Origin: Pseudomonadota bacterium
GTDB taxonomy: Bacteria > Desulfobacterota > Desulfobulbia > Desulfobulbales > Desulfocapsaceae
Assembly: GCA_023412495.1 (NCBI GenBank)
Contig: JAEYNP010000021.1
Location: 1 to 30,774 of the forward strand
Length of the DNA stretch: 30,774 nucleotides
Direction of reading: 5' to 3'
The position numbers and the translations under genes are program-made. Shown piece after piece: positions 3,153 to 26,992 of this stretch (position 1 is its first letter; each line of letters begins with the position of its first letter). The notes beneath the pieces are model-generated. The model searched no databases. It was not told where the DNA came from and worked only from the letters and a program-made list of their open reading frames with translations.

Positions 3153-3212
3153 AATGTCGCCTCCGGCGACCACATTATCTGTCTTCTGTCCTCTGTCCTC
3201 TGGCTTCTGATT
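3114..3212. repeat. Dispersed inverted-repeat element, copy A
   Basis: A 99-bp imperfect palindrome. The left arm starts AATCAGAGGCCGGAAGCC and the right arm ends CTCTGGCTTCTGATT. About 26 of 34 positions pair, and most of the differences are G/A transitions. The centre holds a perfect GTCGCC-TCC-GGCGAC hairpin (3156-3170). It forms the C-terminal codons of both convergent genes, pncB and the EAL gene, and could act as a bidirectional terminator. Related copies occur at 13920-14053 and about 19424-19511. Confidence 0.75.
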
Positions 3213-5415
3213 CCGGTATCCGATCCAGATCGAAAAGCTGGACCACCTCCTCCGCCGGCAGCGGCCGGCTGTAGAGGTTGCCCTGGAGGAGTTCGCAGCG
3301 CAGGAGGCGGAGCATCTTGGCCTGCTCCTCCAGTTCCACCCCCTCGGCCACCACCTCGAGCCCCAGGGAATGGGCGAGGGTGATGATGGAGCTGACGATA
3401 GCCATGCTGTTGGGGCGTTCGGTCATCTCGACGATGAAGGAACGGTCGATCTTGAGGGCGTTCACCGGCAGCTGGCTGAGATAGCTCAACGAGGAATAGC
3501 CGGTCCCGAAATCGTCGATGGCGATGTGAAAACCCATCTCCCGGACGGCCTCCAGCTTGGGGATGTTCTGTTTCACCTCGGTCATCACCGCGCTTTCGGT
3601 GATCTCCATGTCCAGGCCGTCGCTGTAGCCGTCGGTGTCCTGCAGAATCTGGCGCAGGGAAGGGATGAAGTTCTTCTGCCGCAGCTGGATGGGCGAGACG
3701 TTCACCGCCACCCGCGGAGGGTTGAGCTTCATCCTGCGCCATTTGTAAAGATCCTCCGCCGCCCGCCGCATCACCCAGTCGCCGATCACGATGATCATGC
3801 CGGTTTCTTCCAAGAGCGGAATGAATCCGCCGGGCAGGACCATGCCGCTCTCAGGATCGGTATAGCGAAGCAGGGCCTCGAGGCCCATGAGCCGACCATT
3901 GGCGGCCGAGACCTTCGGCTGGTAATGAACATCCAGGGCCCCCCGCTCGATCGCCTTGCGCAACTTGGCCTGCATGGTGACCGAGTGGATGATCCGGTCG
4001 TTCATCGCCGCATCGTACAACAGATACGGTTCGTCCTTGCGATGAGCCCTCTTGAGGGCGATCTCGGCGTTCTTGAAAAGCGTCTCGGCGTCGCCGGCAT
4101 CGGCGGGAAAGAGGGAAATGCCGACCTTGACGGCAATGTGGATTTCGGTGTCGTCGACCTGAAAAGGTTTGGCGAAGGTGCTGAAGACCTCCTGCTCCAG
4201 GATATGGGCGACCAGATCAGGTTCGTTGGTATTGGTGAAGGACAGAGCGAATCTCTCGGCCCCCAGTTTCGCCACCGTCTCGCACTCGCGGGACTCGCCG
4301 AAGCGCTCGGCTATCTGCTTGAGGAGACGGTCGCCGACGTGGCGCCCGTAGGTGTCGCTGACGTCTGAGAAATGCACCAGGTCGACCAGCAGCAGGACGG
4401 CGATCATCCCCGCCCGCTCCGCCGCCTGCAGCTGGAGAGAAAGTTGTTCCATCAACAGGCTGCGGTTGGGCAGCCCGGTCAGAAGGTCGTAGTACGCCAG
4501 GTAGTTGAGCTGTTCCCCTTTCTGGATATGTTCCAGGGCAAAGGAGAGGTCCCCCGCCATTTCCGTCAGCAGCCGCATCTCTTCGGATTTGAAAGCATCC
4601 GGTTCGGACGAGAAAAGAGCAAAAACACCGTTCACCTTGCCATCAATTTTGAGCGGCAGCAGACCGTAGGCTGGGAACCCCCCGGCAAAATCGTTCCAGG
4701 TCACCGGATTTTCCTCGTCCCGGTGCCGGACAATCGGCACACCCTCCTGGTAGACCCGATCAATCGAGCTGCTCACCTCTTCGCTGATCGCATCGACAGG
4801 GGAGGTCTGGCAGTTCGGACTGCCGCCGCCAAGATGGCACCAGGTATCGCTGACGATCTCCCCCGAGTTGCGCATGCTGATCCAAGCTACGGGATAGCCG
4901 CCCTGGTTGACGGCGATCCGGCAGGCCTCCGTGAACAATGCCTCGCGGTCCTCCAGGCGAACGATGGCCGAATTGATGCTGCTGAGAATGAGATAGAGAC
5001 GGGCCAGATCCTCGGTAATGCGCTGGCTCTCGCGGAGCTCATAAGTGCGTTCCTCCACTCGTTGCTCGAGGGTCGCGTTGGCCTGCTGCAGCTGTTTGAT
5101 GGTGTCGTTGAACCCGCGATGCATCATCTCGAACGGCGCCATCACCTCGGCCAGGAACTCTTCGCTGCGGCGAAGGTAGTCACTCATCCTTTCGATGGAG
5201 CCCCCGCAGCGCATGGCCTTCCAGACGACATCCTGGTGCATCGTCACCAGATCGAGAATGTTCATCTGGTCGGCAACTGCGCGACGGCCGAGCTCATAGG
5301 CGCACATCAGCCCCTCTTCGCCTTCTTCGGTGAGGGCGTATTCCTTCAAGGCGCGCGCATAAGCGTTCTTGAACGGTGTATCTTGATCAGCGGGTATCTG
5401 ACTGCCCATGCTCAC
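3175..5415 (-). CDS. RsbU_N-GAF-GGDEF(degenerate)-EAL protein, probable stressosome-controlled c-di-GMP phosphodiesterase
   Basis: Domain order over 746 residues: about 10-115 is an RsbU-type N-terminal domain (helical, with VADQMNILDLVTMHQDVV and FLAEVMAPFEMMHRG), which in RsbU binds the kinase RsbT. A coiled-coil linker follows, then a GAF domain (about 135-300), a GGDEF domain (about 305-465) and an EAL domain (about 485-735). The GGDEF signature reads GAERF at 385-389, so cyclase activity is unlikely. The EAL domain keeps E513-A-L, NVSPIQL, EITES, DDFGTGYSSL and AEGVE, so c-di-GMP hydrolysis is expected. The start is GTG at 5415 with GGAGG nine bases upstream, overlapping the rsbX stop as GTGA; an ATG two codons later is possible. 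It is the last gene of the stressosome operon, and the RsbU-like domain suggests direct control by RsbT. The last residues come from the dispersed repeat at 3114-3212. Confidence 0.9.
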   Translation of the reverse strand: MSMGSQIPADQDTPFKNAYARALKEYALTEEGEEGLMCAYELGRRAVADQMNILDLVTMHQDVVWKAMRCGGSIERMSDYLRRSEEFLAEVMAPFEMMHRGFNDTIKQLQQANATLEQRVEERTYELRESQRITEDLARLYLILSSINSAIVRLEDREALFTEACRIAVNQGGYPVAWISMRNSGEIVSDTWCHLGGGSPNCQTSPVDAISEEVSSSIDRVYQEGVPIVRHRDEENPVTWNDFAGGFPAYGLLPLKIDGKVNGVFALFSSEPDAFKSEEMRLLTEMAGDLSFALEHIQKGEQLNYLAYYDLLTGLPNRSLLMEQLSLQLQAAERAGMIAVLLLVDLVHFSDVSDTYGRHVGDRLLKQIAERFGESRECETVAKLGAERFALSFTNTNEPDLVAHILEQEVFSTFAKPFQVDDTEIHIAVKVGISLFPADAGDAETLFKNAEIALKRAHRKDEPYLLYDAAMNDRIIHSVTMQAKLRKAIERGALDVHYQPKVSAANGRLMGLEALLRYTDPESGMVLPGGFIPLLEETGMIIVIGDWVMRRAAEDLYKWRRMKLNPPRVAVNVSPIQLRQKNFIPSLRQILQDTDGYSDGLDMEITESAVMTEVKQNIPKLEAVREMGFHIAIDDFGTGYSSLSYLSQLPVNALKIDRSFIVEMTERPNSMAIVSSIITLAHSLGLEVVAEGVELEEQAKMLRLLRCELLQGNLYSRPLPAEEVVQLFDLDRIPESEARGQRTEDR

Positions 5416-6050
5416 GACGAATTACCTCCAGGCGTCGTTGCATTGAAAAAGTAGCGGGCCACGAGGACGAGGGCATCGTCGCTGGACTTGCCGAACCGAT
5501 CGAGAATGTATTCGGCAAGCTTGTCCGGCGGTTGGGGCTGGCTTATGGCCTGTACGAATCGGCAATCTATGCCGTCGGTGGCCAGCACCAGGATATCCCC
5601 GTCCTGCAACTGCAGAAAAGAGGTCTGCAGGCCGGGAATCCTCGCCCCGACGATGCCGCCGCGCATCGTTATGTACTCTTTCGGGAGGGCGGGATCCGCA
5701 TGCCGGATCACTCCTTCCACATTGCCCACTCCGGCCCAGCTGAGCAGGCATCGTTTCCTGTCGATGGCGACCACGGTCGCCGCGCTGCCGCGGGTATTCT
5801 TCAAGGCCTCGTGGCAGCGCCGGATCAACCGGTCCGGCGCCTCCTCGATATGCCGTCGCAACACCTCGATCAAGGTCCTGCTGGCCAGCGCCGCTTCGGC
5901 CCCGTGGCCCAGGCCGTCAGCCACCGCGAGCAACCAGCCCGTCGTCGTTTCGGCCACCAGATGGCTGTCGCCGCACTGTTCCTCACCCGGGAAAGGCCGC
6001 ATCGCGATGTGCCATTCCAGTACCCCGTTTTTGTTGCATTGGCCCGTCAT
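5412..6050 (-). CDS. rsbX: RsbX-like PP2C-family serine phosphatase
   Basis: A single-domain PP2C/SpoIIE-type phosphatase of 212 residues. Metal-binding motifs are LLAVADGLGHG near the N-terminus and LVLATDGIDCRF near the C-terminus; SWAGVGNVEG is the typical central motif. In Bacillus, RsbX dephosphorylates RsbS and RsbR and resets the stressosome; the same role is inferred here from gene order. I chose the ATG at 6050 because it overlaps the rsbT stop (TAATG) and has GGGAG eight bases upstream; an ATG at 6065 would add five residues. The 3' end overlaps the GTG start of the EAL gene. Catalytic aspartates are present, so it should be active. Confidence 0.9.
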   Translation of the reverse strand: MTGQCNKNGVLEWHIAMRPFPGEEQCGDSHLVAETTTGWLLAVADGLGHGAEAALASRTLIEVLRRHIEEAPDRLIRRCHEALKNTRGSAATVVAIDRKRCLLSWAGVGNVEGVIRHADPALPKEYITMRGGIVGARIPGLQTSFLQLQDGDILVLATDGIDCRFVQAISQPQPPDKLAEYILDRFGKSSDDALVLVARYFFNATTPGGNSS

Positions 6051-6451
6051 TACCGCTGCTCCCATTTGACCATCGTCACCGTCGTGCCTTTCCCGACCTC
6101 GGAGACGATCTGGAAGTCGTCCATCAGCCGCCGCGCCCCCGGCAGGCCCAGGCCCATGCCGCGCGAGGTTGAATAGCCGTCCTGCATGGCCTGGGCGATA
6201 TCGACAATCCCGGGCCCACTGTCGCGGGCGATGACCAGGAGGCCACGCCTGCCGCCTCTCACGATGCTGCGGAACTCGATCTCGCCCCTTCCGGCATACT
6301 GCACGATATTGCGGGCTATTTCGGAAATGGCGGTGGCCATCAGGGTCAGATCGCTCCCCGAGATACCGAGCGCCATCGCCAGTTCGCGCCCCTTCTGGCG
6401 CGCAAGCATCACCCCCGTGTCGGAAGCAACCTTGATGAGTTCACCGTCCAT
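6050..6451 (-). CDS. rsbT: RsbT-like serine kinase / anti-sigma-factor-type ATPase
   Basis: A 133-residue GHKL ATPase. The N-box is ISEIARNIVQYAGRGEI, followed by DSGPGI and GMGLGLPGARRLM, which form the ATP lid. In the stressosome RsbT is held by RsbR/RsbS, phosphorylates them on stress and is then released to activate a partner through an RsbU-type domain. Such a domain is present in the last gene of this operon (3175-5415). The ATG at 6451 (MDGELIK) is preferred because it overlaps the end of rsbS by 11 bp and matches the family length; a longer frame to 6514 would add 21 unrelated residues. It overlaps rsbX by one base. Confidence 0.92.
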   Translation of the reverse strand: MDGELIKVASDTGVMLARQKGRELAMALGISGSDLTLMATAISEIARNIVQYAGRGEIEFRSIVRGGRRGLLVIARDSGPGIVDIAQAMQDGYSTSRGMGLGLPGARRLMDDFQIVSEVGKGTTVTMVKWEQR

Positions 6452-6821
6452 TTCTGCCGAGCCCGTCCTTGTTGTTATCGGCCTTGAGCATGGCGATGCC
6501 GTCTTCCAGGTCAAGGCACGTGATTGTTCCTTCCAGCGACAGACCCAGTTGGACCATCGAAAAGGCGATCTCCGGCTGGATGCCGACCACCGCCACCTTC
6601 GCGCCCAGGAGGCGGGTCATCTGCGTAATGGAGCGCAGAGTCCTCGCGGCGAAGGAATCCATGACATCGAGCACCGTCACGTCGATCACCACCCCTTTGG
6701 ATCGATACCTGCGAACTGCCCGGACCAGGTTTCCCTGCAAATCGGTGAGATCGGTATCCGTCAGCGCGCCCTGGATCGAGGCGATCAGATAGTCGCCCTG
6801 TTTCAGGATCGGCACCTCCAT
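6441..6821 (-). CDS. rsbS: RsbS-like STAS-domain stressosome scaffold protein
   Basis: A single STAS domain of 126 residues. GVVIDVTVLDVMDSFAARTL contains S56, which sits at the place of the phosphorylated serine of Bacillus RsbS (DSF). MTRLLGAKVAVVGIQPEIAF is also typical. RsbS forms the stressosome core with RsbR and is the main substrate of RsbT. The start codon shares one base with the stop of rsbR (TGATG), and the 3' end overlaps rsbT by 11 bp, so the genes are translationally coupled. The C-terminal dozen residues after KADNNKDG are not part of the domain and are also the rsbT translation-start region. Confidence 0.93.
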   Translation of the reverse strand: MEVPILKQGDYLIASIQGALTDTDLTDLQGNLVRAVRRYRSKGVVIDVTVLDVMDSFAARTLRSITQMTRLLGAKVAVVGIQPEIAFSMVQLGLSLEGTITCLDLEDGIAMLKADNNKDGLGRNGR

Positions 6822-7804
6822 CAGGCCTTTCCTCCCTCATCGTGTCCACCGGCTTTTTCTCCTTTTTCCACCCGATAGCCGAGAAGCCGTTCGGCATGCT
6901 CGATGCCATCCTGCAGCGCCCCCACCGTATAGACCGGCCCCAGGTCGATGCCCAGTGTCACCATGGTCAGAGCGATCTCCGGGGATATGCCGGAGAAGAC
7001 CACCTTGGTCCCCATCAGCCGGGCCGCATCCACCGTCTGCACCAGGTGGTTGGCCACCCGCGAGTCGACGGTGGCCACCCCGGTAATGTCGATGACCACC
7101 ACCTTGGCCCGGTTGGCCCTGATCGACATAAGCAAACTCTCGGTCAGCTGCCGGGCCCGCTGGGAATCGATCTGGCCGATGATCGGCAGCAGCAGCATCC
7201 CCTCGCGGAACGGCAGCACGGGGGTGGAAAGCTCCCGGATCGCCTCCTGCTGCAGGGCCCTGATGGTCCTCTCGCGGGAGTCGATATAGGTGTCGATGGC
7301 CAGCGAAATATCGAGAAAGGTCAGCTTCATCAGAGAGAAGAAGACATCCATCATCTCGTCCGGATGCGTCCGGTCGATCTCGAAAATTCGCTTCCAGACC
7401 TCGCGCAGGTAAAAGTTATACATGCCGAGGTAAAACTTGACCGGCAGGTCGATCCGCTCATGGATCGCCCCGATCTTGAGCCGGTCCTCGACATAATCGA
7501 GATCGTAGTTGCCCTGGGTCAGGCGGATGAAATAGGCCTTCTGCTTGGCCTTGACCCGAGCCAGCAATTCGGCGTCCGGGAAGAAGGCCTTCATCTCTTC
7601 GAAGGACAGTAGATGCCGGTAAAAGGCATCGATGACATCCTGGGCGTATTCCAGGGAGACCTTGGCCAGTTTGTGGAGACGCTCCTCATCCTCCGGGCCG
7701 AACTCCAGGATCTCTTTTCTTTTGGCGAGTTCCAGTTCGGAAATATCCATCATCTCGGCCAGGGTGAGAAATCTCTCGGGCAAGTGCGTTGAGGGTGGCG
7801 CCAT
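6821..7804 (-). CDS. rsbR: RsbR-like stressosome sensor with N-terminal heme-globin domain
   Basis: Residues about 20-175 are a globin-coupled-sensor (protoglobin-like) domain. IGAIHERIDLPVKFYLGMYN carries the candidate proximal heme ligand H115 in the IGxxHxxI...YLG pattern. Residues about 195-310 form a STAS domain. S214 (GQIDSQRA) and S248 (ATVDSRVA) are 34 residues apart, the same spacing as T171 and T205 of Bacillus RsbR, so both phosphosites are probably kept as serines. The protein should sense O2 or another gas or redox state and set RsbT release. The ATG at 7804 (327 residues) is chosen for the GAGAGG seven bases upstream; the frame extends to 7879 without such a site. First gene of a five-gene operon. 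Heme binding is inferred from motif only. Confidence 0.92.
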   Translation of the reverse strand: MAPPSTHLPERFLTLAEMMDISELELAKRKEILEFGPEDEERLHKLAKVSLEYAQDVIDAFYRHLLSFEEMKAFFPDAELLARVKAKQKAYFIRLTQGNYDLDYVEDRLKIGAIHERIDLPVKFYLGMYNFYLREVWKRIFEIDRTHPDEMMDVFFSLMKLTFLDISLAIDTYIDSRERTIRALQQEAIRELSTPVLPFREGMLLLPIIGQIDSQRARQLTESLLMSIRANRAKVVVIDITGVATVDSRVANHLVQTVDAARLMGTKVVFSGISPEIALTMVTLGIDLGPVYTVGALQDGIEHAERLLGYRVEKGEKAGGHDEGGKA

Positions 7805-8207: not shown

Positions 8208-9440
8208 CTATGCGAAAGACTGTCCCGCAAAGACGGCCATCTCCTCTTCATCCCGGCAGACGACCCGGTTCCGGCCGCCTTCCTTGGCAATGTAAAGGGC
8301 TTTGTCGGCCTGGCTGAACAATTCGCCCGGTTCCCGGGCATTGTATTGCAGCGATGCGACGCCGAAGCTTATCGTCACCGAGACCCCTACGGTGGAATCA
8401 TGCTGCACGGCAAGACGCATCCGCCCGGCGATCTTGGCCGCCTGCCTGACATCGAGACCGGGCAGGAGAATGCAGAATTCCTCCCCGCCCCAGCGGCCGA
8501 CCAGATCGGATTCGCGGGAGTTCTTCTGCAGGTTGGCGGCGACCATCCTGATCACCTCATCGCCTACGGCATGGCCGTAGCGGTCGTTGACCAATTTGAA
8601 TTGGTCGATATCGCTCATGATACAGGAGAGTTCCCGGCCCTGCCGCCGGGCCTCTTTGAATAGCCGTTCGAGCCCTCGGTTCAGGGCTCGGCGATTGAGG
8701 AGCTGGGTCAGGGGATCGTGGGTGGCCAGGAACTCCAGTTCCTTATTTTTGGTCAGCACCTCTTCCGTAAAGATCTGCAGTTGAGTCACGGTCTGGTTGA
8801 GTTCCTGATTTTTCTCATCGAGTTCGGTCACGTTGTCGAAAGTGACGAGCACTCGCCATCCACCCCGGTCGTCCAGCACCCGAGCGGCATTGACGACGAA
8901 CTTGAGCGGAGCGGCTCCGGCCTTCTCCATGACCAGGCGAACGCCGGTCCGGCTCGTTCCTTCCTTCAAAACCTGGAGCCAGGGGAGCAACCTGCCGTGC
9001 TGATTGGGATCACACCCCTTCCAACCCAGTTCCGAACCTTTGAGGCCGATCAGCTCCTCGGGGGTCTTGCCCACTGTTTCGGCAAAGGAGGTATTGGCAA
9101 GCACGATGCATTCATCCTCATCGAGAATGAGCACACCTTCTTTGAACACATTAAAGGCCTCCTGGACCCGGCCCGGGATCACACTCAACGGATCGAGCTC
9201 CCGCAGTGTATTCCTGGCGCGCAGGAAGTAGCCGAGGAACACGGCCAGGGCCACGAAGAGCACTATCGCGAAAGAGTTCTTCAGGGTGAACAGGGTATCA
9301 GAGCCCCCCAGGGGAGCAAAGCTTATCTCCACCGTCGCCCAGTGTTCGGGTATAAATCCCATCGATTTGTCGAAAAGCAGGATGCCGACCGCAAGCAACG
9401 CGAGACGGAGGCTGATTCGAGTAGCGCAGGTAAGTTGCAT
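8208..9440 (-). CDS. Membrane-bound PAS-GGDEF diguanylate cyclase
   Basis: Makes c-di-GMP from two GTP. A first hydrophobic segment lies at about residues 7-25 and a second at about 55-74, with a short periplasmic loop between them. A PAS domain follows (about 90-205, VFKEGVLILDEDECIVLANT), then a coiled coil and a GGDEF domain. The active site is GGEEF at 318-322 with the inhibitory-site motif RESD five residues before it, so the enzyme should be active and product-inhibited. LATHDPLTQLLNRR and DIDQFKLVNDRYGHAVGD are canonical. Three ATG codons are in a row (9446, 9443, 9440); AGGA spacing favours the third. It stands alone, with intergenic DNA on both sides, but it is next to the stressosome operon that encodes an opposing phosphodiesterase. 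Confidence 0.93.
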   Translation of the reverse strand: MQLTCATRISLRLALLAVGILLFDKSMGFIPEHWATVEISFAPLGGSDTLFTLKNSFAIVLFVALAVFLGYFLRARNTLRELDPLSVIPGRVQEAFNVFKEGVLILDEDECIVLANTSFAETVGKTPEELIGLKGSELGWKGCDPNQHGRLLPWLQVLKEGTSRTGVRLVMEKAGAAPLKFVVNAARVLDDRGGWRVLVTFDNVTELDEKNQELNQTVTQLQIFTEEVLTKNKELEFLATHDPLTQLLNRRALNRGLERLFKEARRQGRELSCIMSDIDQFKLVNDRYGHAVGDEVIRMVAANLQKNSRESDLVGRWGGEEFCILLPGLDVRQAAKIAGRMRLAVQHDSTVGVSVTISFGVASLQYNAREPGELFSQADKALYIAKEGGRNRVVCRDEEEMAVFAGQSFA

Positions 9441-9914
9441 CATCATCCTAAGGAAAAAAGGTACTAAGTCTCAGGTATAGATCAGGAGGCAATTCACCTG
9501 ACAACTTTCCTAATTCGGGCCTGTTTGTCAAGTAATATTTTTGTCAGGAGAAAACTCCATCACTTCTAAGGAGATCAAGGTTGCTATTATTTCGGAAAGT
9601 ACTACTGTCGGACTAGGTAAATACTGCAATCCCCAGAATTTGCGCAGAAAAATAGCCAATTACCGCAGAGCTGCTGAAAAGACAAGGCAAACGCCGGCAA
9701 CACCAGAACCTAGCAATGGCAATCCTGCCGGATATGAGTATTTACATGAGGGCTGGCAGAGCAAGCGGAGGGGGGAATCTCGCCTGCACCTGTGTCTGTC
9801 CCAGCCGGCGCGGCTAGAAAATAGCCTGCATATATGCCTTCGTTCAGGAAAACAAGGAAGGCCTGGAGAAAGCAAGAAACTGGACCACCGGATGGACGGT
9901 CCGGCTGCACCTTG
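9441..9914. other. Intergenic region without recognised gene
   Basis: About 470 bp. The plus-strand open frame that crosses it has no domain, no good ribosome site and runs antisense through the next gene, so I do not accept it. CCGGA-TGGACGG-TCCGG (9888-9904) is a small hairpin just downstream of the 9915-10325 gene and may be its terminator; a T-rich but interrupted stretch follows on the minus strand. Nothing else was recognised. Confidence 0.5.
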
Positions 9915-11217: not shown

Positions 11218-14200
11218 ATGAAAACAGACGGTATCGGCCATCGTTTTCTCCCGCGCCTCCTCATCGCCATTCTTCTGTTTCTGCCTGCCGGCGCGACCTC
11301 AGCCGAGAAGCGGGCGCTCAAGATCGGCGTGCTCGCCACCCGGGGGATAGAGCATTGCCGCAGGGCATGGACACCCACCGCCGAATACCTCACCGAGATG
11401 ATCCCGGGAAGCACCTTCGTCATCGTCCCCCTCCCCCATGATCGGGTTGCCGAAAGCGTCGGCGCCGGCGAGCTGGATTTCATCCTGACCAATTCCTCTT
11501 TGTATGTGGAACTGGAAGAGGGTTACGGCATCAACAGGATCGCCACCCTCAAGGAGCGGCGACTGGGCCGGGCCTACTCCCGGTACGGCAGTGTCATCTT
11601 CGCCCGCAAGGACCGGACGGATCTCAAGAATTTTTCCGATCTCAAGGGGAAAACCTTCATGGGGGTGGCCGAGGAGTCGCTCGGCGGCTGGCTGATGGCC
11701 AGACGGGAGCTGGAGGAAGCGGACATCGTGCCGAAGCGGGATTTTGCCCGGCTGAGCTTCGCCCAGACCCATGACGACGTGGTCTTCGCCGTCCGCAACG
11801 GAGTGGTGGATGCCGGCTCGGTCCGAACCGGCACCCTGGAATCCCTGAAAGCTGAGGGCAAGATCGAGCTTTCGGATTTTTATGCCTTCCCCCCCCTGCG
11901 CGCCTCGGAGACGACCACCCCCTACCTCTGCTCCACCCGTGAGTACCCCGACTGGCCTATGGCAAAAGTCCGGGATACGCCGGACGAACTGGCGGAGAAG
12001 GTGGCCGTGGCCCTCCTGCAGATGCCTGCGGACGCGCCTGCCGCCCTCGCCGCCGAAAACGCCGGCTGGACCATCCCCGCCAACTACCAGCCGGTCATGG
12101 AGCTGATGATGACCCTTCGGGTCGGGCCCTACAAGGACCTCGGCAAGGTCACCCTGCGCGACCTCCTGCGCAATTACGGGCCCTGGTTCATCGTCGCAGC
12201 TCTCATGTTCTTCACCCATGCCGCCTTTACGCTGCTGGTAATGAAGCTCAACCGGCAGATCAAGGCCTCGCATCTGTCGCTCCTCACCGAGATCGAGCTG
12301 CACCGCAAAACCGACAAGGAACTGGAAAAGGCCAAGCAGCAGGCCGAGGCGGCGACGCAGGCCAAGAGCCAGTTCCTCGCCAACATGAGCCACGAGATCC
12401 GCACGCCGATGAACGGCATCATCGCCGCCACCGACCTGGCCATGGCGGAGCCCGTCTCCCCGGAAGTCGACCGTTATCTGCACATTATCCAGAATTCCTC
12501 CTACACCCTCCTCGGCATCATCAACGACATCCTCGACTTTTCCAAGATCGAGGCCGGCCAGCTGGAGCTGAAGGAGCGGGTCTTCCGCCTCGACGAGATG
12601 TTCGACCGGGTCATGGAGGTCTTCGTCAACCAGGCCGCGGAAAAAGGCATCGAGCTGCTCGTCGACATAGAGTGGCAGACACCCCGGATCCTTTTCGGCG
12701 ACTCGCTCCGCCTGCAGCAGATCCTCACCAACCTGATCAGCAACGCGATGAAATTCACGCCGCCCGGCGGCATCATCCTGATCAGCGTCCACGACATCAG
12801 CGCAACCACCGAAGGACTGGTGGACGAACAGGTTATGCTATTCCTGTCTGTCAGGGACACCGGCAGTGGTATCGATCCCGCCTATATGCCCTATCTCTTC
12901 GAGCCATTTACCCAGGGCGACTCTTCATTCACCAGAAAACACGAAGGCACGGGACTCGGATTGTCCATCTGCAGAAAATTCGTGGAGATGATGCACGGCA
13001 CCATCCGGGCCGAAAGCATTCCCGGCCAGGGATCGACACTCTCCTTCACCATCCGTTTGATTAAGGCCGGCTCCAATCTGCCTTCGCGGTACGTCTTCCC
13101 GGCCGATATCCAAGGACTCAACGTCCTCGTCGTCGACGACAGCGCCGACAGCCGGGAAATCATGATGAAGATGCTCCGCGCCTTCGGATTCCGCGTCCTG
13201 GCCCTTTCCTCCGGAGCCGAGGCGGTTGCGCGTCTTTCGGCCAAAGCTCAGGAACAGGAACCCATCGAGCTGGTGCTCATGGACGGCAAAATGCCCGGCA
13301 TGGATGGCCTTACGGCCTCCCGAATAATCCGCGAAGAGCTCCATCTTTCGCTGCCGATCATCATGATGACCGCCTTCTCCCGCGAGATCACCAAGTCGGA
13401 AGCGGAAAAGGTCGGCACCAACGGTTTTCTCGCCAAACCCATCTTCCAGTCGACGCTCTTTGACGCGATCATGGATGCCTTCGGCAAGGAAGGGGCGCAT
13501 CGGGGCGGGGTGAAAAAGGATTTCACCACCAGGGCCTCCATGTACAAAAAACAGCTGCAGGGCTGCCGCATCCTGGTGGCGGAGGACAATCTTACCAACC
13601 AGCAGGTGGCCCAGGCGGTGCTGGGCGGCGCGGGAATCGCCGTGACTATGGTCGCCAACGGCGAGGAGGCGGTAGCGGCGGTGCAAAGAGAAAGTTTCGA
13701 CGCGGTGCTCATGGACATCCAGATGCCGAAGATGAACGGGTACGAGGCCACGAAGGCCATCCGCCAGCTGCCTGGCTGCGATGTCCTGCCGATCATCGCC
13801 ATGACCGCCCACGCTTTGAAGGGCGATGAGGAAAAATGTCTCGAGGCCGGCATGGACGGCTATGTGGCGAAACCGATCAACCAGGATCGTTTGTTCTATA
13901 CCCTGTGGCGCCGTCTGAAAATCAGAAGACAGAGGACAGAAGACAGAGGACAGAATAGTGTGTCGTCCGCGGCGAGAGAGGAGCTTTTGCAAACCGATTG
14001 CCGAAGGCAAGAAATCTCTCTGCCTTCTGACCTCTGTCCTCTGGCTCCTGATTTGCCCGGCATCGACATCGGCAGGGTGCTGCAGTCAACCGGCCTCGAC
14101 TGGCGGACCTTCCAGGATATCCTTGCCGGCTTCTCAAGGGACAATCGGGATACCATCGCCAAACTTGAGCGGGCGCGGGCCGAGGGCGAACGAGAGGAGC

Positions 14201-14658
14201 TCATGCATATAGCCCACAGCCTCAAAGGCAGCGCCGGCAATATCGGAGCGGGCGAGCTGCGCGAGGCCGCCCTGGAGCTGGAGCAGAGCTGCAGTGAAAA
14301 TGCGCCTGCCGACACGGTCGATGCCTGCTGCATGGAACTCAAGCAGGAGTTGACCCGGCTTTTGACCCTTTTAGCCCAGATGAAGGAGCCCGAAGGGGAG
14401 AAAGAAGCACACCTTCCGCCGCCCGCGGGACATAGCGACTTAAATACCCTTCTGGCGCATCTCTCCGAGGCGATCGATCGTGCGGATCCCCAGGAGATAA
14501 AAGCGAAGACGGCGGAGGTCGTCGGCCGGCTGCTCGACCAGCCGCTGCTCGAGGCCTCGCTCCTCGAGAAACTCAAAACCGAAACCAGCCGGTACGATTA
14601 CGAACAGGCGAAGAAAACCATCCTTTCTCTGCGCAGTGCCCTGGGAGGGCTTCAATGA
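11218..14658 (+). CDS. Hybrid sensor histidine kinase with PhnD-type periplasmic domain (PhnD-TM-HisKA-HATPase-REC-REC-Hpt)
   Basis: 1146 residues. A signal peptide (cut after about ATSA) leads to a PhnD-like substrate-binding domain (about 30-300, with DFILTNSSLYVEL and DLKGKTFMGVAEES), so the ligand is probably a small periplasmic anion or metabolite. One TM segment (about 320-342) and a short coiled coil follow. HisKA carries H392 in FLANMSHEIRTPMNG. The HATPase has NLISNAMKFT, DTGSGIDP and GTGLGLSIC. REC1 has D689 (LMDGKMPGMDG), REC2 D833 (LMDIQMPKMNG), and the Hpt has H1000 (AHSLKGSAGNIG). This is a full phosphorelay. Residues about 901-946, between REC2 and Hpt, are encoded by a copy of the dispersed inverted repeat that keeps the frame open. 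ATGA overlap with the next gene (REC-HD-GYP), its likely phosphoryl acceptor. The ribosome site is weak. Confidence 0.93.
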   Translation: MKTDGIGHRFLPRLLIAILLFLPAGATSAEKRALKIGVLATRGIEHCRRAWTPTAEYLTEMIPGSTFVIVPLPHDRVAESVGAGELDFILTNSSLYVELEEGYGINRIATLKERRLGRAYSRYGSVIFARKDRTDLKNFSDLKGKTFMGVAEESLGGWLMARRELEEADIVPKRDFARLSFAQTHDDVVFAVRNGVVDAGSVRTGTLESLKAEGKIELSDFYAFPPLRASETTTPYLCSTREYPDWPMAKVRDTPDELAEKVAVALLQMPADAPAALAAENAGWTIPANYQPVMELMMTLRVGPYKDLGKVTLRDLLRNYGPWFIVAALMFFTHAAFTLLVMKLNRQIKASHLSLLTEIELHRKTDKELEKAKQQAEAATQAKSQFLANMSHEIRTPMNGIIAATDLAMAEPVSPEVDRYLHIIQNSSYTLLGIINDILDFSKIEAGQLELKERVFRLDEMFDRVMEVFVNQAAEKGIELLVDIEWQTPRILFGDSLRLQQILTNLISNAMKFTPPGGIILISVHDISATTEGLVDEQVMLFLSVRDTGSGIDPAYMPYLFEPFTQGDSSFTRKHEGTGLGLSICRKFVEMMHGTIRAESIPGQGSTLSFTIRLIKAGSNLPSRYVFPADIQGLNVLVVDDSADSREIMMKMLRAFGFRVLALSSGAEAVARLSAKAQEQEPIELVLMDGKMPGMDGLTASRIIREELHLSLPIIMMTAFSREITKSEAEKVGTNGFLAKPIFQSTLFDAIMDAFGKEGAHRGGVKKDFTTRASMYKKQLQGCRILVAEDNLTNQQVAQAVLGGAGIAVTMVANGEEAVAAVQRESFDAVLMDIQMPKMNGYEATKAIRQLPGCDVLPIIAMTAHALKGDEEKCLEAGMDGYVAKPINQDRLFYTLWRRLKIRRQRTEDRGQNSVSSAAREELLQTDCRRQEISLPSDLCPLAPDLPGIDIGRVLQSTGLDWRTFQDILAGFSRDNRDTIAKLERARAEGEREELMHIAHSLKGSAGNIGAGELREAALELEQSCSENAPADTVDACCMELKQELTRLLTLLAQMKEPEGEKEAHLPPPAGHSDLNTLLAHLSEAIDRADPQEIKAKTAEVVGRLLDQPLLEASLLEKLKTETSRYDYEQAKKTILSLRSALGGLQ
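13920..14053. repeat. Dispersed inverted-repeat element, copy B, in frame inside the hybrid kinase
   Basis: The left arm (13920-13955) begins AATCAGAAGACAGAGGACAG, and the right arm (about 14019-14053) ends CTCTGTCCTCTGGCTCCTGATT. The centre contains GTCGTCCGCGGCGAG, similar to the GTCGCC-GGCGAC centre of copy A. It is longer than copy A because of extra loop sequence. It encodes the linker RRQRTEDRGQ...LPSDLCPLAPDLPG between REC2 and Hpt without a stop codon. Confidence 0.75.
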
Positions 14659-15734
14659 ACAAAAACCGCTCGCTGGTCCTGATTGTCGACGACAACGCGA
14701 CCAACATCGACCTCCTGGTCAACACTCTGAAGGACGAATACCGGCTGGGGATCAGCAAGAAAGGCGCCGCCGCCCTGGAATACGCGGAAAAATATAGTCC
14801 CGATCTCATCCTGCTCGACATCATGATGCCGGAAATGGACGGCTACGAGGTCTGTCGCCGGTTGAAGAGCAATGCGGCAACACAGGCGATCCCGGTGATC
14901 TTTATCACCGCCATGTCGGAGACCATCAATAAAACCAAGGGCTTTACCTTGGGCGCTGTGGACTATATCACCAAGCCTTTCCATGCGGCGGAGGTGAAGG
15001 CACGGGTGGCGACCCATCTGACGCTCTCGGCCATGAAGGCGCAACTCGAGGCGCAGAATGAGCTCCTCGAGGGGATGGTGGCAGAAAAGACCCGGCAGAT
15101 CCATGAGATGCTCGACGGAATCATCTCCAGCATGTCGCTCATGGTCGAGATTCGCGACCCCTATACCGCCGGCCATCAGCAGCGGGTGGCCCGGCTGGCC
15201 TGCGCCATTGCCGCGAAGATGGGGCTTCCGCCGCAGACCATCGAAGGCATCCGTATCGCCGGTATTTTGCACGACGTCGGGAAAATCCGGGTCCCGGTGT
15301 CGATCCTGAACCGGACGGGGCAGTTGCTCGACGCCGAAATGGATGTCATTAAAATCCATCCGCGGGTCAGCTACGAGATCCTCAAGGGAATCCCCTTCCC
15401 TTGGCCCTGCGCCAGGATCGTGCTGCAGCATCACGAACGGCTCGACGGGTCGGGCTACCCCTTCGGGCTCCGCAGCGAAGAAATTCTCCTGGAAGCGAAA
15501 ATCCTGGCGGTTGCCGACGTCACCGAGGCGAGTAGTTCCTTTCGCCCCTACCGCCCAGCCCAGGGCCTGGAGACGGCGCTGGACGAACTGCGCCAGTACA
15601 GAGGCATCCGCTATCACGCGGCTACAGTCGATGCCTGCCTCTCCATCTTTGCCGCGGATGAGTTCCAATTCGATCAGAAAGAGCCGCTGACGATCCCGGA
15701 TTTCTGCAAAACCCAGGCTCCCTTGTATCGCTGA
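14655..15734 (+). CDS. Response regulator with HD-GYP c-di-GMP phosphodiesterase domain
   Basis: 359 residues. The REC domain (1-125) has the phospho-acceptor D55 (LILLDIMMPEMDG) and the K of ITKPFHAAE. A helical linker precedes an HD-GYP domain (about 155-345) with H206-D207 (GILHDVGKIRVP), HH at 259-260, and DGSGYP ending in GYP at 267-269. VADVTEASSSFRPYRPA is also conserved. The domain hydrolyses c-di-GMP to pGpG or GMP. The start overlaps the kinase stop (ATGA), so the pair is translationally coupled, and the Hpt domain of the kinase is the likely phosphodonor. All motif residues I can check are present, so activity is expected. Confidence 0.95.
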   Translation: MNKNRSLVLIVDDNATNIDLLVNTLKDEYRLGISKKGAAALEYAEKYSPDLILLDIMMPEMDGYEVCRRLKSNAATQAIPVIFITAMSETINKTKGFTLGAVDYITKPFHAAEVKARVATHLTLSAMKAQLEAQNELLEGMVAEKTRQIHEMLDGIISSMSLMVEIRDPYTAGHQQRVARLACAIAAKMGLPPQTIEGIRIAGILHDVGKIRVPVSILNRTGQLLDAEMDVIKIHPRVSYEILKGIPFPWPCARIVLQHHERLDGSGYPFGLRSEEILLEAKILAVADVTEASSSFRPYRPAQGLETALDELRQYRGIRYHAATVDACLSIFAADEFQFDQKEPLTIPDFCKTQAPLYR

Positions 15735-24982: not shown

Positions 24983-25733
24983 CCGCCGCTATGCGATCGA
25001 GGTCGAGCACCTCACCGTCAGTTACCATGCCCGGGCCGCCCTCCTCGACGTCAGCGTCCGCATCGAGAGGGATCAGCTGGTCGGCGTGATCGGCCCGAAC
25101 GGCGCGGGCAAATCGACCTTTATCAAGGCCCTGCTGGGTTTTCTCAAGCCCGATGTCGGCAGGGTTACCATCGACGGCCGCGACGTCCAGGAGGCCAAGG
25201 GCAGGGTGGCCTATGTGCCGCAACGCGGTTCGGTGGACTGGGATTTTCCGGTGACCGTCCGGGAAGTCGCGCTGATGGGCCGCTACCAGCGCATTCCCTG
25301 GTATGCCTCACCGTCCGCCGCCGATCGGCAGGCGGCCGCCGAGGCGCTGGCCATGGTGCGCATGGAGGAGTTCGCCGACCGGCAGATCGGTGAACTGTCC
25401 GGCGGTCAGCAGCAGCGCGTCTTTCTCGCCCGGGCCCTGGCTCAGGGCAGCGACATTCTTCTGCTGGACGAGCCGTTCGCCGGCGTCGACGCCGCCACCG
25501 AACGGGCCATCCTTGAGGTTCTGGAGCGGGCCAAGGGGGCGGGCAAGACCCTGGTGGTCGTACACCACGATCTGGTCACCGCCGCCGAGTATTTCGACAA
25601 ACTCATCCTGATAAAGCAGCGGCTGTACGCCTACGGCGAGCCCCGGGCGGTCCTGCGGGAGGATCTGCTCAGCCGGGTGTACGAGGGCCGGCTGCGCATC
25701 TTCGGCACGGTGTTCAAGGAGGAGAAGGCATGA
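24972..25733 (+). CDS. Metal ABC transporter ATP-binding protein
   Basis: 253 residues. Walker A GPNGAGKST, Q-loop VPQRGSVDWDFPVTVREVAL, signature LSGGQQQRV, Walker B ILLLDEPFAGVD, H-loop VVHHDL. The QRGSVDWDFP stretch is typical of the Mn/Zn/Fe (MntB/TroB/ZnuC) subfamily. It powers uptake through the permease encoded next. The ATG at 24972 overlaps the previous gene by 11 bp; the stop overlaps the permease start (ATGA). All catalytic motifs are intact. Confidence 0.95.
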   Translation: MTTDRRYAIEVEHLTVSYHARAALLDVSVRIERDQLVGVIGPNGAGKSTFIKALLGFLKPDVGRVTIDGRDVQEAKGRVAYVPQRGSVDWDFPVTVREVALMGRYQRIPWYASPSAADRQAAAEALAMVRMEEFADRQIGELSGGQQQRVFLARALAQGSDILLLDEPFAGVDAATERAILEVLERAKGAGKTLVVVHHDLVTAAEYFDKLILIKQRLYAYGEPRAVLREDLLSRVYEGRLRIFGTVFKEEKA

Positions 25734-26992
25734 TCCACGAACTCTTCATCGCGCCGCTCACCGAAACCTATTTCCAGAAAGCGCTGATCGGCGGCTCCAT
25801 CGTGGCGATAGTCGCCGGCGTCGTGGGCTGCCTGGTGGTGCTGCGGCGGATGGCTTTCCTGGGCGACGCGCTCTCGCACGCCATGATCGCAGGCGTCGCC
25901 GGGGGGTATCTGGTGATGAAGTTGCTCTTCGGCCTGGAAGCCCATGCCCCGGGAATGCTCATCGGCTCACTGCTGGCGGCGGTCGTCACCGTCGCCCTGA
26001 TCGGCTTCGTCTCGCGGATCTCCAGAGTCAAGGAGGATACCGCCATCGGCATCATGTACACCGGGATCTTCGCCCTGGGGGTGGTGGCGGTGTCGATCTT
26101 TCGCCACTATATCCACATCGATCTCATGCATTTCATCATGGGCGACATCCTCGGCATCGCCGACAGCGACCTGTGGGTGAGCGCCTTCGTCGCCGCCCTG
26201 GTGCTGACGGTACTGATCCTCTTTTACCGGCATTTCCAGCTGACCACCTTCGATCCGGTCATGGCGGCCTCTATCGGCCTGCCGGTGCTGCTGCTCGACT
26301 ATGTGCTCACCACCTGCGTCTCGCTGGTGGTGGTCAGCGCGGTAAGCATGGTCGGGGTGATCCTGGTGGTAGGCCTCCTGATAACCCCCTCCGCCACCGC
26401 CTATCTGCTCTGCGACCGTTTGGACCGGATGATGGCGCTGGCGGCGCTGTTCGGCGTCACCTCGGTTATCGGTGGGCTCTATCTCTGCGTCTGGCTGGAT
26501 TCCGCCGGCGGCGGGGCGATCATGCTGTTCTGCACCCTGCAGTTCCTGGCGGTGCTGATCGTGGCCCCGAAGTATGGTCTATTGGCCCGCTGGCTGCGCC
26601 TGCGGAGCCTCGTGCCGCAGCAGATCGTCGAGGACGTGCTCACCACCGTGCTGCGCTACGGCAAACCAACGCCGATGGAGACGATCAGACACTATGTCGA
26701 GGACGGCGTGCGGCTCAACCGGGCCATCCGGCGGATGGTCCAGGATGGCTTGCTGGGCGAGCGGGAGGGTGATTACATCCTGACGGAGAAGGGAGAACAG
26801 GAGGCGGCCAAGGTGCTGCGCGCCCACCGGCTGTGGGAAGCCTACCTGGAAACCATCGGCACGCCGCAGGAGCGTCTGCATGCCACGGCCCACCGGCTGG
26901 AGCACATCCGCGGCGGGGCGGCCGAGTATCTGGATGAAAAGCTGGGCCGGCCCGAGCAGGATCCACACGGCAAGGATATCCCGGGGAAATAG
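25730..26992 (+). CDS. Metal ABC permease fused to a DtxR-like metalloregulator
   Basis: 420 residues. Residues 1-285 are an ABC-3 (TroC/ZnuB) permease with 7-8 TM segments (RMAFLGDALSHAMIAG and VVSAVSMVGVILVVGLLITP are signature parts). Residues about 295-355 form a winged helix (PTPMETIRHYVEDG, AIRRMVQDGLLGEREGDYIL). About 355-418 is a DtxR dimerisation/metal domain: H366 and E370 (RAHRLWEAYL), H384, H388, E391 and H392 (HATAHRLEHI), and the C-terminal DPHGKDIP, all as in DtxR (H79, E83, H98, C102, E105, H106). Chlamydia YtgCR is a known case of this fusion, cut to release the repressor. No separate regulator gene follows. Either the tail acts as a membrane-tethered or released repressor, or it gates transport by sensing cytosolic metal. 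Confidence 0.93.
   Translation: MIHELFIAPLTETYFQKALIGGSIVAIVAGVVGCLVVLRRMAFLGDALSHAMIAGVAGGYLVMKLLFGLEAHAPGMLIGSLLAAVVTVALIGFVSRISRVKEDTAIGIMYTGIFALGVVAVSIFRHYIHIDLMHFIMGDILGIADSDLWVSAFVAALVLTVLILFYRHFQLTTFDPVMAASIGLPVLLLDYVLTTCVSLVVVSAVSMVGVILVVGLLITPSATAYLLCDRLDRMMALAALFGVTSVIGGLYLCVWLDSAGGGAIMLFCTLQFLAVLIVAPKYGLLARWLRLRSLVPQQIVEDVLTTVLRYGKPTPMETIRHYVEDGVRLNRAIRRMVQDGLLGEREGDYILTEKGEQEAAKVLRAHRLWEAYLETIGTPQERLHATAHRLEHIRGGAAEYLDEKLGRPEQDPHGKDIPGK

Follow-up and report, generated by a model that had tools for sequence, protein, structure and literature searches.

A globin-RsbR stressosome operon ending in an RsbU_N–EAL gene in a Desulfobulbales-type bacterium

Contig JAEYNP010000021.1 of GenBank assembly GCA_023412495.1, from a Pseudomonadota bacterium that GTDB places in the Desulfocapsaceae (Desulfobulbales), was analysed over positions 1 to 30,774 (30,774 nucleotides, here called the window). 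Its minus strand carries, running from 7804 to 3175, five overlapping open reading frames (ORFs) without internal stop codons, which encode the stressosome proteins RsbR (with a globin domain), RsbS, RsbT and RsbX, and an output protein that joins RsbU_N to an EAL domain. The operon is real and conserved within a small group of bacteria. Its mechanism is plausible, and we consider it probable that the state of the heme ligand (oxygen, O2, or another) sets the release of RsbT, which would then bind RsbU_N and promote breakdown of cyclic di-GMP (c-di-GMP).

Operon layout

The five genes are as follows, each with the evidence on which its assignment rests.

6821..7804, minus strand: rsbR; Protoglobin (E 1.9e-35, residues 23-178) and STAS (E 4.7e-15, residues 195-287); Pfam, PDB alignments and orthologues
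6441..6821, minus strand: rsbS; STAS-only antagonist (E 3.1e-12) with Ser56 within MDSF; Pfam and alignment
6050..6451, minus strand: rsbT; HATPase switch kinase (HATPase_c_2, E 7.7e-13); Pfam (scanned as 6050-6454) and alignment
5412..6065, minus strand: rsbX; PP2C/SpoIIE-type feedback phosphatase (SpoIIE/PP2C, E 1.3e-16); Pfam
3175..5415, minus strand: EAL output gene; 746 amino acids, GTG start; Pfam, family alignment, AlphaFold2 and profile match to RsbU structures

Consecutive genes share 1 (rsbR/rsbS), 11 (rsbS/rsbT), 16 (rsbT/rsbX) and 4 bases (rsbX/EAL gene). Every Pfam domain of the five proteins scores above its own curated cut-off, and none is a membrane part. The genes for the STAS proteins RsbR and RsbS, the RsbT kinase and the RsbX phosphatase adjoin one another in both the Pfam and the ORF data, giving an RSTX module. 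An earlier note on this DNA had placed the same five overlapping genes at 3175..7804, and ORFs and Pfam bear out its coordinates; its details needed correction, namely the ATG of rsbT at 6451, the GTG start of the EAL gene at 5415, and a GAF domain that it had overlooked.

The EAL output protein

Five parts were assigned along the output protein.

Residues 18-97: RsbU_N; Pfam E 8.3e-9, 35.9 bits against a cut-off of 25.5
Residues 74-159: long helical linker; helix in the AlphaFold2 model
Residues 156-295: GAF, between RsbU_N and GGDEF; GAF_2 E 5.6e-12
Residues 307-460: degenerate GGDEF with motif GAERF; Pfam E 3.4e-30
Residues 483-718: EAL; Pfam E 3.9e-70

A profile built from ten N-terminal sequences matched four RsbU entries in the PDB (E 6.6e-5 to 0.0011), the next matches having E values of 0.26 or above. 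The AlphaFold2 model of residues 1-160 (51 sequences; mean predicted local distance difference test score, pLDDT, 88.4; predicted template modelling score, pTM, 0.65) shows short helices (14-29, 32-48 and 53-69) leading into one long helix (74-159). A spurious domain call is ruled out by the Pfam score, the profile match to RsbU structures and these helices taken together. The proposal that residues 10-115 are RsbU_N had been made earlier along with the fold search that could overturn it, and both the positive hidden Markov model match and the helical model favour RsbU_N.

Eight EAL positions that we take to be catalytic (E513, N572, E604, D634, D635, K655, E691 and Q711) are all present in the window protein and are kept in 52-55 of the 56 rows of the family alignment; the other rows have gaps there or, in one or two cases, substitutions. 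None of the 55 readable rows has a canonical GGDEF motif: GAERF stands in the window protein where GG(D/E)EF would be expected, which upholds the description of this domain as dead at the level of its motif. In the remaining row, the fragment P0024, the motif falls in a gap. The readable rows include the window protein and P0001, which are the same protein, so that 53 of them are relatives.

This alignment holds the window protein and P0001-P0055, with five kinase matches (P0056-P0060) left out. Its sequences derive from a search with the first 150 residues of the EAL protein, which found 60 proteins among 1111 candidates, one being the window's own. In the precomputed Pfam column, 54 of the 60 have EAL and GGDEF, and 48 of these 54 also have RsbU_N; the other six comprise the fragment P0024, without listed domains, and five RsbU_N proteins with histidine-kinase domains. 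Among the 59 other matches, nine are in alignment A1 (12 rows with the window chosen, P0024 and P0039 not used) and 50 in alignment A5.

The RsbR sensor and the stressosome core

The closest solved relative of full-length RsbR is chain B of 7o0i (E 1.2e-48, residues 39-313), the Vibrio vulnificus stressosome complex. With the globin part alone, the best PDB matches were 7o0i, globin 2w31, HemAT 1or4 and the globin-coupled histidine kinase 5ohe. RsbR residues H115 (proximal) and Y62 (distal) align with the histidine and tyrosine of 7o0i and HemAT 1or4, and both are kept in all four globin RsbR proteins (window, L001, L093 and L004) of a six-protein alignment. According to PMC4976288, the proximal histidine is needed for heme binding and the distal tyrosine stabilises the bound ligand. 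A protoglobin fold with these two residues is the sequence signature of a heme-binding globin-coupled sensor, from which we infer that the RsbR globin carries heme. The N-terminus of RsbR had thus been read correctly as a globin domain.

The remaining two RsbR proteins in the alignment, from the gammaproteobacterial loci L094 and L095, do not align as globins; Pfam found no Protoglobin in L094 RsbR, and RsbRD_N was sub-threshold there (22.0 against 24.3 bits). T241 and T280 of RsbR are invariant across all six RsbR proteins, as is S56 across six RsbS proteins. By analogy with B. subtilis, T241 and T280 are candidate phosphosites, and Ser56 of RsbS is presumably the phosphosite of that protein.

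Protoglobin was searched for in five genomes (matches: G001, one; G134, one; G004, two; G002 and G003, none), and the operon's RsbR is the sole match in G001 and in G134.

Conservation of the gene order

The order R-S-T-X-EAL is complete in three of the five loci with a relative, damaged in one and not judgeable in one. Full order is found in L001 (Desulfobulbaceae BRH_c16a), in L093 (genome G134) and in L004 (Noviherbaspirillum denitrificans), whose output protein has an additional PAS domain. L003 is not judgeable because its contig begins within the EAL gene. In L002 (8006-8965, genome G002), a deletion has fused RsbR to RsbS in frame and RsbX is reduced to its C-terminal end, beside an intact RsbT and EAL gene; this may be decay or misassembly, since G002 is a metagenome-assembled genome. 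DNA identity to the window is 84% over 4.2 kb in L003 and 77% over the operon in L001, which places the source of the window close to these Desulfobulbales-type genomes. An apparent MreC-RsbR fusion in L004 was ruled out as an assembly gap, the frame crossing a run of N at 6425-6434. The scan of genome contigs yielded only four named loci because two strict peptide patterns were used.

RsbU_N itself is sparse. At E <= 0.001, the EAL protein is the sole RsbU_N match in G001, G134 and G004; G001, G134 and G002 have one match each, that of G002 lying under the cut-off. Across the 257 genomes of G001's class, seven have RsbU_N at E <= 0.001 and six are over the cut-off.

The N-terminal profile was also run against 395 genomes of the phylum and 369 of G004's class, scoring up to nine candidates per genome, and matched in 58 and 57 genomes, respectively. 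Most of these matches were not taken as relatives because they are confined to the coiled-coil part (model positions about 70-164). In the phylum, the profile matched from its start in G001 only (positions 2-164); the match in G187 begins at position 34 (E 2.0e-7), and those in the other genomes of the 58 fall in later parts. In G004's class, four genomes (G004, G719, G876 and G897) matched from the start, and the proteins of G719 and G876 are RsbU_N histidine kinases adjoining S, T and X.

Proposed mechanism and alternatives

Two studied systems suggest how the parts could work together. In V. brasiliensis, RsbT is active when the RsbR heme is ferrous and unliganded, has intermediate activity when nitric oxide (NO) or carbon monoxide (CO) is bound, and shows basal activity when RsbR is in the Fe(II)-O2 or Fe(III) form (PMC4976288). 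The B. subtilis phosphatase RsbU is activated when RsbT orders its linker into a coiled coil; the authors extend the linker idea to MtG, a cyclase, and to histidine kinases, and ‘phosphodiesterase’ and ‘EAL’ have 0 occurrences in the main text (PMC12143880).

On these analogies, RsbR and RsbS would form the core of a minimal Gram-negative stressosome that acts through c-di-GMP breakdown, with the globin heme of RsbR reporting O2 or perhaps another heme ligand. With unliganded ferrous heme, as in Vibrio RsbR, RsbT would phosphorylate RsbR and RsbS and then leave the core, whereas with O2-bound heme it would stay there. Free RsbT would bind a putative RsbU_N dimer of the EAL protein and order the long helix that leads into GAF, thereby activating the EAL dimer, and RsbX would reset the core. 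The net effect would be that at low O2 RsbT is free, the phosphodiesterase is on and c-di-GMP is low, and that O2 exposure turns the phosphodiesterase off; this sign comes from combining the V. brasiliensis RsbT activities with the linker ordering in B. subtilis RsbU. That O2 or a heme ligand sets c-di-GMP breakdown through RsbT had been suggested in the earlier note: the wiring stands as the best-supported reading, while heme, RsbT binding and phosphodiesterase control are carried over from homologues.

In its broader form the proposal is that RsbT would serve as a diffusible activating subunit of an EAL phosphodiesterase through an ordered linker, without a sigma factor, phosphatase cascade or two-component step, and that across relatives one RsbT pool would be common to interchangeable RsbU_N outputs (cyclase, EAL, HD-GYP, histidine kinase and free-standing RsbU_N). 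We give this an even chance.

Several observations weigh against RsbT control of the EAL protein. The similarity of its N-terminus to true RsbU is low: among the RsbT-contact residues of B. subtilis RsbU named in PMC12143880 (E24, Y28 and I74), a single alignment, in our own reading, pairs E24 with E33, Y28 with M37 and I74 with A93, so that two contacts would be Met and Ala here. Relatives matching far beyond the GGDEF-EAL part are rare, in at least four of the 257 class genomes (G001, G002, G003 and G134) with up to four candidates scored per genome. The damage in L002 means either that the wiring is not universal or that the L002 assembly is wrong. Finally, HATPase_c_2 has 7 to 34 matches per genome in each of the five genomes, and other RsbT-like or RsbW-like kinases are candidate rivals for the RsbU_N target.

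The direction of control is not readable from sequence, which leaves room for the opposite sign, in which RsbT inhibits the EAL protein, or phosphorylates it as a kinase, and RsbT release raises c-di-GMP. We regard this as unlikely, as the RsbU precedent is activation by binding and the long helix of the model fits activation.

A second alternative adds a gene to the circuit, which is a possible associate of the operon.

8208..9446, minus strand: PAS-GGDEF diguanylate cyclase; intact GGEEF with RxxD five residues ahead, 403 bases upstream of rsbR; Pfam

If this cyclase belonged to the same circuit, the locus would set both synthesis and breakdown of c-di-GMP. It lies on the same strand with its motif intact, and its orthologue in L001 (70%) sits at the corresponding position, where it is fused to a GGDEF-EAL part. 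The gap to rsbR, the lack of RsbU_N by Pfam and its absence from the fetched flanks of L093, L004 and L002 nevertheless make its membership rather improbable. Compared with the L001 orthologue, the window cyclase is without about 90 N-terminal sensor residues and without the C-terminal GGDEF-EAL part; the sensor part of the orthologue is probably periplasmic.

Degenerate GGDEF domains can act as sensors of guanosine triphosphate (GTP), as in Caulobacter PdeA. In a third alternative, RsbU_N would only dimerise, the EAL protein would be controlled mainly by GAF, by GTP bound to the degenerate GGDEF or at the level of expression, and RsbT would have its target elsewhere or none. In its favour, GAF is above its Pfam cut-off, the PdeA precedent exists and the EAL gene is kept in L002 beside damaged RsbR, RsbS and RsbX. 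We nevertheless find it unlikely, because the EAL gene overlaps rsbX, the gene order is the same in the three complete loci, and the N-terminus has EEALM- and APFEMMHR-like blocks of invariant or near-invariant residues, which line up with the parts of RsbU that contact RsbT.

If RsbT does activate the EAL protein, the operon would be a compact five-gene system in which all steps between gas ligand and second messenger could be reconstituted in vitro, and the RsbT–RsbU_N contact would be a general plug for phosphodiesterases as well as for kinases, cyclases and phosphatases. The operon also hints at a way for Desulfobulbales-type anaerobes to couple O2 exposure to c-di-GMP.

Relation to known systems

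The Vibrio systems (V. vulnificus and V. brasiliensis) share an RsbR whose protoglobin has the proximal His and the distal Tyr, the R-S-T-X order and, as a proposal, a c-di-GMP output; V. vulnificus differs in having a downstream two-component pair with no RsbU_N detected, where a single RsbU_N-GAF-GGDEF-EAL protein with degenerate GGDEF is found here. Moorella thermoacetica MtG is likewise an RsbU_N-GAF output under an RsbT homologue with a second-messenger product (PMC12143880), but ends in a GGDEF cyclase domain rather than in EAL with a degenerate GGDEF. In the Bacillus subtilis RsbRST-RsbU-sigmaB pathway, RsbU_N is also the RsbT target and a helical linker also leads to the catalytic domain, whereas a PP2C phosphatase that feeds into a sigma factor is the output there, and the RsbR globin is described as without the key heme residues. 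Noviherbaspirillum denitrificans L004 likewise has globin RsbR, S, T and X followed by an RsbU_N protein ending in GAF, degenerate GGDEF and EAL; it differs by the extra PAS after RsbU_N and by a weaker RsbU_N score (23.0 in the protein scan and 27.5 in the genome search, against 25.5).

The concept is already in print as a prediction. Heinz et al. 2022 (PMC9237108) describe globin-RsbR RSTX modules across Proteobacteria and other phyla with eleven downstream architectures, RsbU_N in some; list GGDEF, EAL and GAF in the domain key of Fig. 3, as given by the abbreviations in its legend; and propose c-di-GMP control for Vibrio, Chromobacterium and Herbaspirillum. The V. vulnificus operon was reported in PMC3360785, its role not known there, and PMC10014275 hypothesises that its downstream module degrades c-di-GMP as the stressosome output. 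The earlier claim that a gas-sensor-to-EAL operon is not described was too strong, because Heinz et al. 2022 had listed globin-RsbR RSTX modules, some with RsbU_N in their outputs, and proposed c-di-GMP control, as PMC10014275 did for V. vulnificus. Our literature search, which covered few subscription journals, identified no paper testing an RsbU_N-EAL protein. As far as searched, what is new is that bacteria of the Desulfobulbales type have this operon and that it is conserved.

Operon boundaries

One further feature lies directly 3' of the EAL gene.

3156..3170, minus strand: terminator-like hairpin; GTCGCCGGAGGCGAC then ATTCTATTTT

This hairpin is a possible operon end; it is weak evidence by itself, because the region has 8 terminator-like sites against 4.8 +/- 2.3 in shuffles. 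No promoter is claimed: a single sigma-70-like site came up, at 8132-8105 of the minus strand, against an average of 2.0 in shuffled versions of the region. The window has 2 sigma-54-like matches against 1.87 expected, neither close to the operon. An RNA element near the operon was considered and dropped, as an Rfam scan of the window gave no match at the gathering score.

Other stressosome loci and window genes

Locus L105 (1533-4984; genome G205, contig C163) has three tandem RsbU_N proteins after RsbX: a free-standing RsbU_N of 102 amino acids, one that also has an intact GGDEF motif, and one with an HD-GYP-like C-terminus, the C-termini being assigned by translation. The contig terminates near RsbX, and R, S and T are thus beyond view. 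A single stressosome may here drive both c-di-GMP synthesis and breakdown, and the free-standing RsbU_N could soak up RsbT. Two consecutive RsbT-like frames (42% and 40% identity to the window RsbT) stand between RsbS and RsbX in L106 (genome G127, contig C222), with an RsbU_N protein downstream whose translation resembles a PAS-histidine kinase-receiver protein. The gammaproteobacterial loci L094 (3511-8759) and L095 (3777-8509) have RSTX followed by an RsbU_N histidine kinase, a gene of 210 amino acids and a GGDEF gene; by Pfam, the 210-residue product of L094 is a LuxR-type response regulator.

Elsewhere in the window, positions 11218-15734 (plus strand) encode a hybrid histidine kinase with Hpt that is fused to a periplasmic domain of the phosphonate-binding type; a receiver and HD protein comes next, and the whole is possibly a further c-di-GMP phosphodiesterase circuit. 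The ABC-3 metal permease at 25730-26992 (plus strand) has a C-terminal match to the metal-binding domain of iron-dependent repressors, a fusion of transporter and DtxR-type parts.

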